DNA of 64,000 bases. Source: Phycisphaerales bacterium. GTDB taxonomy: Bacteria > Planctomycetota > Phycisphaerae > UBA1845 > UTPLA1. The stretch is from contig JAKSDK010000138.1 in assembly GCA_022360095.1 (NCBI GenBank), positions 62,001 through 126,000 on the forward strand. The letters run 5' to 3'. The notes under the pieces are model-generated. The model saw only the letters and a list, made by a program, of their open reading frames with translations. It ran no database searches and was not told the DNA's origin. Both the position numbers and the translations under genes were made by a program. Positions within the stretch are counted from its first letter, which is position 1. Each line of letters begins with the position of its first letter. Below, piece by piece: positions 34,303-40,631 of the stretch.

Positions 34303-35496
34303 GTGGCGTTACGTGTCAAATGCAAATGCGGCAAAACGCTGAAGATTTCATCGAAGCATGCAGATCGGAAGCTGGGATGCCCCCACTGCAAACACGCGTT
34401 TCGTATCTCGGCCGCCAAATTCAAAAACGCTGAGGCCAATTCCGTTGCGCGAAGTCCGGCGCCTCGACCACCGCCGCCGCCCGCTCCACGACCTGTCCCA
34501 CTTCAGGCGTCCCCGACACCTGCCAATCTCGACGACGAGCTGCTCGGCGAACTCTCCGGCGTTTTCGACCATTCTCAAAGTGACATCCTCACTGCGCTCG
34601 ACGCGGACGCGACCTCTGCTCCAACCTCCGCGGCGCCGGCAGCGATTGCCGTGGAAGCCGCGAAGCCGGTTTCACTCAGCTATGCGCGTGACGGGCGACC
34701 GGAACGGCCGCGAGGCTCGAGCCTGCGTGATACCGTACAGGGGCCCCAGCGTGGGTTCTGGTCCGATGCATTCATGAGCTTCATCTATCCCGTCCAAAGC
34801 GGCGGCAACGCCATTACGCTGGTGATCATCCTTTTCCTCTCGGCGATTCGGGAATTCCTTCCGGACTCAGGCTGCATGAGTCTGATTCCTTCGCTCATTA
34901 TTTTCGGCTGGCTGGCCGCGCTGTACTTTTCCGTCATTCAAGAGACATCGACCGGCTCGGACGATTTGCCAGGAATCCGGATGGAAGGCGGGTTTCTGGA
35001 TGACATCATCAAACCGGCGCTGAAGTTCATCGGTGCGATCGCGGTGGTGCTCGCACCATCCGTGTTCCTGGCCATCGCCTTGAGTTCTGGTTTGTTGCCG
35101 TCTTCGATGGGATGGATGATCCCCATTTGGACAGCGGCCGGCATCTTCCTGTTGCCGATCTCGCTTCTACTGTTCGCTTTTGACGCCTTGGGGACGATCT
35201 ATCGACTTGACCTGATCTTCTCGACCATCTTCCGAACCATCCTACCCTACCTGGCAATTTGGCTCATGTTACTGATCATCGGCACCGGGCTCATGATCAC
35301 GAACCTCGGCGAGATGATCCTCGACGCATTCAAAATAGATTTCCTCACCAGCGTCTCGCTCACGAACGTCGGCCTGGGGTTCGCCATCATGCTTCTTCTG
35401 AATATCTTCAGCACGTATCTGATGATCGTCGCCATGCGGGTCATCGGCCTCTATTACTTGCACTTCAAGAAGCGATTCACCATCGTTATGGAGTAG
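34303..35496 (+). CDS. Zinc-ribbon membrane protein
   Basis: 397 residues from the GTG at 34303 (GAGGGA about 6 nt upstream); a TTG at 34255 in frame has no site. A zinc ribbon begins at once (KCKCGKTL...GCPHCKHAF). A Pro/Ala-rich linker of about 100 residues follows, then five or six hydrophobic segments with a Yip1-like look (residues ~165-390). The last residues are basic. Such ribbon-linker-membrane proteins are common in planctomycetes and have no assigned function. Its stop overlaps the convergent DUF3179 gene by 11 bp. Confidence 0.75.
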   Translation: MALRVKCKCGKTLKISSKHADRKLGCPHCKHAFRISAAKFKNAEANSVARSPAPRPPPPPAPRPVPLQASPTPANLDDELLGELSGVFDHSQSDILTALDADATSAPTSAAPAAIAVEAAKPVSLSYARDGRPERPRGSSLRDTVQGPQRGFWSDAFMSFIYPVQSGGNAITLVIILFLSAIREFLPDSGCMSLIPSLIIFGWLAALYFSVIQETSTGSDDLPGIRMEGGFLDDIIKPALKFIGAIAVVLAPSVFLAIALSSGLLPSSMGWMIPIWTAAGIFLLPISLLLFAFDALGTIYRLDLIFSTIFRTILPYLAIWLMLLIIGTGLMITNLGEMILDAFKIDFLTSVSLTNVGLGFAIMLLLNIFSTYLMIVAMRVIGLYYLHFKKRFTIVME

Positions 35497-36325
35497 GCAG
35501 TCGCCAGACCTGATCCGTGGACGTCTCTTCCCGACCGCGGTCTCCCAGTAAAACAACCGTGTCGGGGTGTTCCTGACACCATTGAGACAACGTTACAATC
35601 GGAGGCTTGTCAAGAAACGATAGGCGACTTCCCTTGCGCGGGCCGCTGATCGCATCAAAGGCACCGTTCTGCAGCGGATACCAGACGGTTTCGGTCTGAC
35701 GATCGTAAAGTACAAAAATGTTGTTGAAGGTATAGCCGGTGGTCCCGAATGTCGTGGCCGTGCCATCCACTTCCCGTCCGTACACGACGGACAACTTATC
35801 CAACGGTCACCATCCGACGGTCACCGGCCTGCCGCCGACGGTGTCGTTGACGAGTTCGTGGCGATTGAGCAATTGGATTGGATATGCCCGAGCATCGCCG
35901 TTGTGTTCATAGCCGATGACGGAAAGCTCATCGATGTTCTCTTGGCCGCGTTGTGCCCAACGGCCCTTCAACGTCGCATCGTCGGGTTTGACAAAAACCG
36001 GATGGTCGATGGCCGGGATCGAGTCGCGACCGATGCCGAATTGGAATTCGGCAAGCGGCAGCGGTGATCCGGTCAAATCAAACCACTCAGACCCGCGCTC
36101 CGCCGGATCGATCGGCCCTGCGGCCCACAGATATTGCCGATCCCCTTCCGTGTGAATCTTGTTTGCCGGGGCATATCGAGAAGGGCGGAAACCAAGAGGG
36201 CCGTCCGATAGATAACTGAACCAGTATATGGAAAAGCCGGCGCATATCAGAATGATCGCCGTCAAGGCGATGACGGTGCTTAAGTCTTCTTTGCGATAGA
36301 ACCGTTTTTCGTCCGACTTCGGCAT
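35486..36325 (-). CDS. DUF3179 domain (seleno)protein with in-frame TGA read as Sec
   Basis: 279 residues if the TGA at 35807-35809 is decoded as selenocysteine (residue 173). The first 172 codons encode an N-terminal membrane anchor (VIALTAIILICAGFSIYWF) and the start of a DUF3179 domain ending ELVNDTVGGRPVTVGW. The TGA follows, and the same frame continues PLDKLSVVYGREVDG, TFGTTGYTFNNIFVLYDRQTE and VWYPLQNGAFDAISGP to a TAG stop. DUF3179 proteins normally have Cys in the CPL motif at that position. A stem-loop directly after the TGA fits a bacterial SECIS. To my knowledge a (seleno)protein form of this family is recognised in automated annotation, but its function is unknown. A conventional gene caller would split it in two. 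Confidence 0.82.
35774..35794 (-). promoter_or_regulatory. Candidate bacterial SECIS stem-loop after the in-frame TGA
   Basis: On the minus strand GTCCGT (35792-35787) pairs perfectly with ACGGAC (35781-35776), with two further U.G pairs below. The 5-nt loop CGUGU begins 20 nt after the TGA and has G at its second position. Known bacterial SECIS elements have an apical loop about 16-37 nt after the UGA with G among the first loop bases; the E. coli fdhF loop begins about 18 nt after. Confidence 0.65.
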
Positions 36326-36529: not shown

Positions 36530-37105
36530 TTGGGCAAAAGAAAGTCGTCGTCCAAGGCTTTTCTGGATCTCCTGGAGCCTCTTGGCGACTCGCTCTACCG
36601 CTACGCCAAACGGATGGCCTGGGACGATGATCTGGTTGCGGACATCGTTCAGGAAGCCGTGATGACCGGCTGGCGGGAGTTCGGACGGTTCGAGCGCAAT
36701 ACGAATTTCAAAGCATGGATGTTCAAGATTCTGATCAACACGATTTACCGACTGAACAAACGCGCGGCTCGTCAACGGGTCGCGACACTCGACGAATCGA
36801 ATCCCGACTCGTCCTTGATGCTCGAACGAGAAAATACCTGGGCCTCGCTGTTGGAAAATCCGGAGCGTCTGATGCAATTGCTTGACGAACGCTTAGTCCA
36901 TGCCTTGGACAGACTGGCGACAGACGAACGCCAGTGTCTATTGCTGCGAATCCTCGAGGGGTTCAGCTATAAGGAGATTGCATCGATGATGGAAATTCCG
37001 CTGGGAACGGTGATGTCCCATGTGCATCGTGCCCGGGCCAAGCTCCGCGAGCGGCTGGCTGCGCTGGCACTCGAACACGGCTTCATTACGAGGGCTTCCG
37101 AATGA
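36530..37105 (+). CDS. ECF-type RNA polymerase sigma factor
   Basis: 191 residues from the TTG at 36530, which has AGGAG 8 nt upstream. Region 2 is seen in ADIVQEAVMTGWREF and the following NTNFKAWMFKILIN. Region 4 is the helix-turn-helix LLRILEGFSYKEIASMMEI followed by GTVMSHVHRARAKLRERL. It shares a 4-bp stop/start overlap with the zf-HC2 anti-sigma gene, so the two form a regulated pair. The target promoters are not known. Confidence 0.93.
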   Translation: MGKRKSSSKAFLDLLEPLGDSLYRYAKRMAWDDDLVADIVQEAVMTGWREFGRFERNTNFKAWMFKILINTIYRLNKRAARQRVATLDESNPDSSLMLERENTWASLLENPERLMQLLDERLVHALDRLATDERQCLLLRILEGFSYKEIASMMEIPLGTVMSHVHRARAKLRERLAALALEHGFITRASE

Positions 37106-37860
37106 ATTGCAAAGATGTCCGAAAGTGGATGAGCCCTTACATGGACTCCGAGCTGGACCCGACGAAGATTTTCGAGATCAGCGAGCACCTGCGGAGCTGC
37201 CCGAAGTGCAAGGCACGATTCGAAAGAGAACGCGGCATCGATGATCTGATTCGCAGTCGTTTGGAACGGGACCGAATGCCTTCCGATTTGTGGATGCGAA
37301 TCAGTCGGAAGGTGTCAATGCCGTTCTGGCTGCGACAACTCACCAGGCCGAGTGGAATTGCCGCGGCGGTCTGTCTCGCGTTGTTGATCTTTGGTGCAAT
37401 CGGTTTCTGGCCGCGCGACACCGGCGATGAACGTCCCTGGTTGGTTCGCGAGTTGGCCCTCTTGGCCGCGGATGACGATTTCACGGAAGACACGTCCACG
37501 GTCAGGACATCGGAACGGCTGTTGCGTGACCTGTTTGGGATCGAGATTGCGGCTTCAACCGCGCATCCGCACGCGTTGGCCTTAATCAAGGCAACAACTC
37601 AAGTTGATGAGAATGGCCATGAGTACGTCCAAGTTCACCTGAACTGCTGTGGTAATCCCGTCCTGATGGTCCTCGCACGCCCCGGTGACGGCCCGATGCC
37701 GACGCCGTTCGACGGGGCCCCGTTCGATCAGGACGGGGGCACCGATCAGATTGACGGCATCAACATCATGACGAAGAATTTCGGTGACATCATGGCCGTC
37801 GTCGCATCCACGCATGCGGTGGAGCAAATCGCCAAGAGTTTGCAAATCAACAAGGTCTAG
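37102..37860 (+). CDS. Zinc-finger (zf-HC2) anti-sigma factor, membrane-anchored
   Basis: 252 residues. The anti-sigma zinc domain is complete: Cys3, His29, Cys33 and Cys36 in SEHLRSCPKC. One membrane segment lies near 85-104 (GIAAAVCLALLIFGAIGFW), followed by an exported C-terminal domain of about 150 residues that would sense the signal. The gene overlaps the sigma factor gene (ATGA at 37102-37105). Release of the sigma factor probably follows a change at the exported domain. Confidence 0.88.
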   Translation: MNCKDVRKWMSPYMDSELDPTKIFEISEHLRSCPKCKARFERERGIDDLIRSRLERDRMPSDLWMRISRKVSMPFWLRQLTRPSGIAAAVCLALLIFGAIGFWPRDTGDERPWLVRELALLAADDDFTEDTSTVRTSERLLRDLFGIEIAASTAHPHALALIKATTQVDENGHEYVQVHLNCCGNPVLMVLARPGDGPMPTPFDGAPFDQDGGTDQIDGINIMTKNFGDIMAVVASTHAVEQIAKSLQINKV

Positions 37861-39728: not shown

Positions 39729-40631
39729 ATGATTCGGCGAAACATACTCTCTGATGACGGCATCGCTCAGCAATACGTTCAGGCCGTCTCACGGCTGAAA
39801 GATCCGGATGCGTATCCGTGGCCCGGCCAGGATGGTCTTTCACTCTATGACTTCTTCGTTTTCTGGCATCACCGGGCCATGATGCTGTCTACACCGCCCG
39901 GCCAAATGTCGCGAAACGCCGCCCATTCGGGACCGGTTTTTCTCCCCTGGCATCGTTACATGCTCCTTCGGTTGGAAGGATATCTCCGTGAAGCGGTCGA
40001 AGACGATGGCTTTCGCATTCCATACTGGGATTGGGCGAGTGACTCAACGCTCCCCGACCCAAGACTGTCGCCACTGTGGGATAACAACCTGTTGGGCCAA
40101 TTTATCGCGACAGGCTCAACCTGGCGGGTTCGCTTCGGGCCTAATCCGTTCGGGGGCGGGGGGAGCCCACGAATAACGGACCGTGCCCTCGATCGAAGCC
40201 TTGGAGCACCAGGCGGGCGACTGTCAAGTCGCGCGGAGATTCGTGAGCTCGTGCGCGACAACGCCGTCTACGACCTGCCGCGCTTTGGCCAGTCCGCCGC
40301 CGGTTTTCGAAATGAACTTGAAGGCTGGCAGGACATGGGACATCATCACAATCTCGCCCATGTCTGGGTAGGCGGTGACATGACGATCTCTACATCACCC
40401 AACGACCCTGCTTTTTTTCTTCTTCACTGCAACGTTGATCGGATATGGGCCGCCTGGCAGAAAGCACATCCGAGCGCAACGTACCGTCCGCCGCAAAGTG
40501 CATCGGATGACCTGCGGTTTCACCGGCTTCGCGACCCGATGCACACGTTTTTTGATGAAGAGATCACACCGGAAGACATGCTCGATTTTTCCGGCTGGTA
40601 CGACTACGACACTTACGAGGATATTCTTTAG
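39729..40631 (+). CDS. Tyrosinase family protein (type-3 copper)
   Basis: 300 residues. All six copper-ligand positions can be placed: CuA near His47/48, His66 and His75 (HSGPVFLPWHRYMLLRLE); CuB at His207 and His211 (MGHHHNLAHVWVGGDM) and His233 (DPAFFLLHCNVDRIW). The PYWDW motif is present near 98-102. Tyrosinases oxidise phenols and catechols to quinones with O2. No signal peptide is visible, so it is probably cytoplasmic or exported with its partner. Tyrosinases of this compact type are not a usual part of planctomycete genomes that I know of. Confidence 0.92.
   Translation: MIRRNILSDDGIAQQYVQAVSRLKDPDAYPWPGQDGLSLYDFFVFWHHRAMMLSTPPGQMSRNAAHSGPVFLPWHRYMLLRLEGYLREAVEDDGFRIPYWDWASDSTLPDPRLSPLWDNNLLGQFIATGSTWRVRFGPNPFGGGGSPRITDRALDRSLGAPGGRLSSRAEIRELVRDNAVYDLPRFGQSAAGFRNELEGWQDMGHHHNLAHVWVGGDMTISTSPNDPAFFLLHCNVDRIWAAWQKAHPSATYRPPQSASDDLRFHRLRDPMHTFFDEEITPEDMLDFSGWYDYDTYEDIL

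Follow-up and report, generated by a model that had tools for sequence, protein, structure and literature searches.

A gene in the window (the whole stretch of 64,000 nucleotides that was analyzed) almost certainly encodes a genuine selenoprotein of the DUF3179 family, with selenocysteine (Sec) inserted at codon 173. The gene occupies 35486..36325 of the minus strand, starts with ATG at 36325, ends with the stop codon TAA at 35488-35486 and was read through as one frame of 279 aa. Codon 173 is TGA (35809-35807 on the minus strand, feature 35807..35809) and would be read as Sec within the motif VGWUPLDKL. It is the sole interruption of the frame, with 172 open codons 5' and 106 open codons 3' of it, and plain ORF calling of the window cuts the gene into two ORFs at this position. 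These codon numbers had been given in the original prediction and agreed with the coordinates; the strand, which had been left unstated, was minus. The claim that both halves are DUF3179 sequence was borne out by a profile match. PF11376 matched residues 100-265 of the read-through protein (35531..36028, minus strand) on both sides of the TGA with 136 bits (E = 2.3e-39; Pfam gathering cut-off 27 bits). Frame openness alone was taken as weak evidence, because 65 TGAs in the window are flanked 5' and 3' by 60 or more open codons. At the sequence level, what goes beyond chance is the homology on both sides of the TGA together with the recurrence of this TGA codon in dozens of relatives.

Relatives were collected by PF11376 profile search in 114 genomes of the order and in 392 genomes sampled across the phylum. 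In a search with the window protein itself, one candidate (L024) matched over only 22 residues of the N-terminal hydrophobic helix and was rejected as non-homologous. DUF3179 genes of the order comprised a long, stop-free type and a short type, the latter almost always with exactly one TGA, located inside the domain. The position of the TGA codon was identical in 47/47 TGA-bearing genes that were read from the order and in 40/40 fetched from the phylum sample, where many more such genes were detected; these counts, like the hairpin counts below, were taken from alignment rows of related sequences and do not represent independent trials. If the gene were a pseudogene, or if the assembly contained a sequencing error, the TGA would be a nonsense mutation in a gene undergoing decay, and the two halves returned by the plain ORF list are all that speaks for this. 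As had been argued originally, a nonsense mutation at exactly that codon would be a coincidence, and the same codon was affected at 87 loci, which neither a pseudogene nor a sequencing error in the TGA would produce. The relatives showed no random stops as signs of decay; in 87/87 TGA-bearing relatives read, the TGA occupied this one codon and the frame was otherwise open.

The original prediction also held that the TGA replaces the conserved Cys of a CPL motif. The column was correct, but its Cys is not invariant: across 24 DUF3179 proteins of the order that lack a stop, the residue is C, S, N, D or A, with Ser, Asn or Asp being frequent. Nearly constant in these 24 proteins is the Cys at +3 (xPLC), which the window protein lacks in the alignment (motif UPLD). 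His156, near the Sec in sequence, is nearly invariant. Motifs among the 40 phylum genes were UPLC, UVIC, UHLC, UTLC, UPLA, UMVC, UAAC, USLC and UPLT, and UxxC was found in 34/87 Sec members. In a quick tree, the window protein was placed in a clade of 43 rows (SH-aLRT 100), all of which had Sec and none a Cys at +3; here, UPL was followed by A, D, V, S and other residues. With stop-free genes drawn from the order only, this tree gives no date for the origin of Sec. UGA in the same column was also observed in divergent DUF3179 types (L093 in G103, L047 in G062, L050 in G065 and L056 in G082) with the motifs SFUVVC, TWUHLC and SWUPSE.

A predicted hairpin of the bacterial SECIS (bSECIS) type was identified downstream of the UGA by folding and comparison (35774..35794, minus strand). 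Its 8-bp stem begins 12 nt downstream of the UGA, the 5-nt loop CGUGU with G at position 2 starts 20 nt past the UGA, and the free energy is -9.0 kcal/mol. The published bSECIS model comprises a loop of 3-9 nt with G in the first two bases, a stem of 4-16 bp, a UGA-to-loop distance of 16-37 nt and an MFE <= -7.5 kcal/mol (PMC13188914), and the window hairpin falls within these ranges for loop, G, stem, spacing and MFE alike. In 86/87 Sec genes there was a hairpin whose first two loop bases include G, and the SECIS-type hairpin was absent from the UGA-free DUF3179 homologues examined. Over 45 aligned sequences, 96.7% of stem cells were paired (a value reached by 0 of 500 shuffles), and 4/8 stem pairs had compensatory changes, with both sides altered (reached by 1 of 500 shuffles). 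Within the stem, codon Ser+6 was TCC in 41/41 cases (background 21%) and codon Gly+10 was GGA in 40/42 (background 18%); codons apart from these vary. The stem codons thus appear to be fixed beyond the need of the protein, which points to a constraint at the RNA level. In a comparison with windows of the same genes, the hairpins were among the stabler ones (median percentile 0.087), and stability alone was not used as proof because only 32/87 were below 0.05. The predicted hairpin is independent, RNA-level evidence for Sec that had not been considered in the original prediction. With 87/87 relatives sharing the codon and a constrained hairpin behind it, a pseudogene or a sequencing or assembly error was rejected on comparative data and is given a negligible probability.

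For Sec insertion, selA, selB, selD and tRNA-Sec, proposed originally as the genes to search for, were all found in the host genome (8.5 Mb, 1918 contigs, 94.3% complete). The profile SBP_bac_10 (PF07596) had four weak hits in this genome against none in the controls, which fits Planctomycetota without proving it. SelA matched with 536 bits and is adjoined by SelB on contig C1146, and SelD is present on contig C196 (L010). The tRNA-Sec scored 70.6 bits, above the gathering score, and was called tRNA-SeC with anticodon tca (UCA) by ARAGORN. A selA match was obtained in 61/65 best genomes of the order; being near-universal there, selA supports the assignment and does not discriminate. Six genomes with a TGA-bearing DUF3179 gene in which selA was missing or a weak fragment are 63-88% complete. 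The SelD gene also has one in-frame TGA (motif CAGUAGK), and on this ground SelD itself is a probable selenoprotein.

In favor of a genome-wide reassignment of TGA as a sense codon, or of readthrough with another amino acid, is that the base after the TGA is C in most members, a context in which UGA stops translation weakly. TGA is, however, the stop codon of 18/36 long ORFs in the window. Therefore the standard code holds and genome-wide recoding was rejected. The presence of the sel genes and the constraint on the hairpin also argue against recoding or readthrough of this kind, which we consider very improbable. The selenoprotein assignment, put forward originally as probable, is strongly supported by the sel genes, the conservation of the UGA and the SECIS-type hairpin. 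SelB would deliver Sec-tRNA(UCA) at UGA codon 173, directed by the downstream hairpin.

DUF3179 (PF11376) is already listed in reviews among selenoprotein families as UxxC/T (PMC9312934, PMC13188914); both sources cite Zhang and Gladyshev 2007, on the Olavius algarvensis symbiont, for this family. The published members and the window protein share the Pfam domain and Sec at the first position of an xPLC-type motif. The published motif is UxxC or UxxT, whereas the window protein has UPLD with neither Cys nor Thr at +3, and Cys never occurs at this position in its 43-row clade; it is therefore a variant of the published form, and it further differs as a predicted membrane-anchored short form. 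Because the family is already listed, the novelty lies in the Sec-only clade without the +3 Cys and in the functional links described below. No function for DUF3179 was mentioned in the literature searched, and Sec would single out one active-site residue in a family without known function. The wide spread across the phylum points to a large, hidden group of selenoproteins; in plain ORF calls, genes of this kind are broken in two at the UGA.

An AlphaFold2 model of the protein had a mean pLDDT of 85.3 and a pTM of 0.76 and was good over the domain; it places U173 at a strand end. The model has an N-terminal helix at residues 15-40 (36206..36283, minus strand), which is hydrophobic and, judged from sequence, probably anchors the protein in the membrane with the DUF3179 domain outside. 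The product would thus be a DUF3179 domain that is anchored in the membrane and has a single selenol in its probable active site. A PDB sequence search with the protein retrieved no relative (best E 0.95), and Foldseek with the model retrieved nothing at E <= 0.001. As neither sequence nor fold links the protein to any PDB chain, no function can be read from the fold, and for the same reason the putative active site was assigned from conservation.

The divergent neighbor of the gene encodes an ECF sigma factor (36530..37105, plus strand; Pfam Sigma70_r4_2 and Sigma70_r2, NCBIfam sigma70-ECF above cut-off). It is followed by a gene for a zf-HC2 anti-sigma factor (37102..37860, plus strand), assigned by Pfam and homologue context, with a HxxxCxxC zinc finger and a hydrophobic segment. 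The anti-sigma factor also carries an LNCC motif, which recurs in three neighbors of other Sec-DUF3179 genes. An ECF sigma/anti-sigma pair likewise adjoins the gene in close relatives. The best homologues of the anti-sigma factor in the order directly adjoin Sec-DUF3179 genes on the same strand (G061, G069, G070 and G071), and a further one of these lies at most 2 kb from a Sec-DUF3179 gene in divergent layout (G092). The window pair resembles SigR/RsrA-type pairs in combining an ECF sigma factor with a HxxxCxxC zinc-finger anti-sigma factor, but differs by the hydrophobic segment and the LNCC motif. The best NCBIfam matches, SigH_actino and RsrA, were both below their curated cut-offs, the anti-sigma factor scoring 41.7 bits against 62.5 for the RsrA-type model TIGR03988. 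The anti-sigma factor may be a redox or metal sensor. From gene linkage, the DUF3179 gene is probably regulated by a redox-sensing ECF sigma/anti-sigma pair.

In the order, both UGA-bearing and UGA-free DUF3179 genes recur near ArsS and other arsenosugar or metal-resistance genes (L150, L151, L152 and L153). Among the loci read, the DUF3179 regions of G083, G092, G107 and G111 contained varying sets of arsenosugar or metal genes: ArsM-like methyltransferase, ArsS, TIGR04283 glycosyltransferase, PitA-like permease, VTT/DUF547 protein, MerA-like oxidoreductase, CopZ/MerT-like protein and MerR. By coordinate comparison, ArsS was within ~0.4 kb of stop-free DUF3179 genes in five genomes (G013, G056, G092, G107 and G111) and about 3.5 kb away in G032. 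It was less than 10 kb from Sec-type genes in G074, G075, G083, G086, G092 and G104. Closeness of DUF3179 and ArsS was thus found in at least 11 genomes; by our estimate, the chance of a gene lying within 10 kb in a 4.5-Mb genome is about 0.4%. The arsenic link is indirect for the window copy, since ArsS of the host is on another contig (C1700).

A second DUF3179 gene of the host (L109:4967-7531, plus strand, contig C1146) is fused behind a T4_deiodinase domain (PF00837, 104 bits), which has its own in-frame UGA (motif SYTUPPF) and downstream hairpin. A TPR-like region joins this domain to the DUF3179 domain with its own UGA, and the protein is a predicted double selenoprotein. Such a double-UGA fusion occurs in three genomes: the host, G002 and G106. 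Besides L109, the fusion is seen at L159 and L160 (minus strand). The second gene thereby carries the domain of deiodinase-like bacterial selenoproteins, whereas the window gene lacks it; deiodinase activity is not claimed. Another fusion, of a Sec-DUF3179 with DUF547, occurs in G104.

For the pathway and substrate class of DUF3179, gene linkage was the only source. On this basis the window protein may, tentatively and at somewhat less than an even chance, be a selenol protein that serves at the envelope under redox or metalloid stress. It would be an extracytoplasmic selenol enzyme, probably under the redox-sensing ECF sigma/anti-sigma pair, and the stress countered at the envelope would be of the redox or the thiophilic-metalloid (arsenic-type) kind. 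With no Cys at +3, Sec would act alone in a one-selenol, peroxidase-like chemistry with an external thiol as reductant. The missing second Cys would also suit a Sec that serves not as redox catalyst but as ligand of As(III), Hg(II) or Cu, in an envelope sensor, chaperone or sink. The nearly invariant His156 and the linkage of the family with CopZ/MerT-like, MerR, ArsM and ArsS genes are in line with such a ligand; the fusion to a deiodinase-like domain carrying a UGA of its own suggests redox chemistry instead, and UxxC, present in the 34 members counted above, is a typical redox motif. We regard a ligand role as unlikely, although the evidence does not distinguish redox catalysis from metalloid binding. 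The double-UGA fusions in three genomes could also indicate that the Sec domain and its deiodinase-like partner jointly carry out halogen or peroxide chemistry that has nothing to do with arsenic. The recurrent closeness to ArsS argues against this, and its probability is rated low. Similarly low is that of the specific form of the enzyme proposal, in which the Sec-only clade would be a redox-regulated envelope selenoenzyme that acts on arsenicals or related oxidants together with a deiodinase-like selenoenzyme, to which it is fused in some genomes; if true, this would be the first function for DUF3179. The ArsS links, the ECF sigma pair and the double-UGA fusion lead to concrete, testable predictions of function. 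Elsewhere in the window, a gene at 39729-40631 (plus strand) may, judged by eye from the motif HCNVDRIW, encode a tyrosinase-like copper protein.
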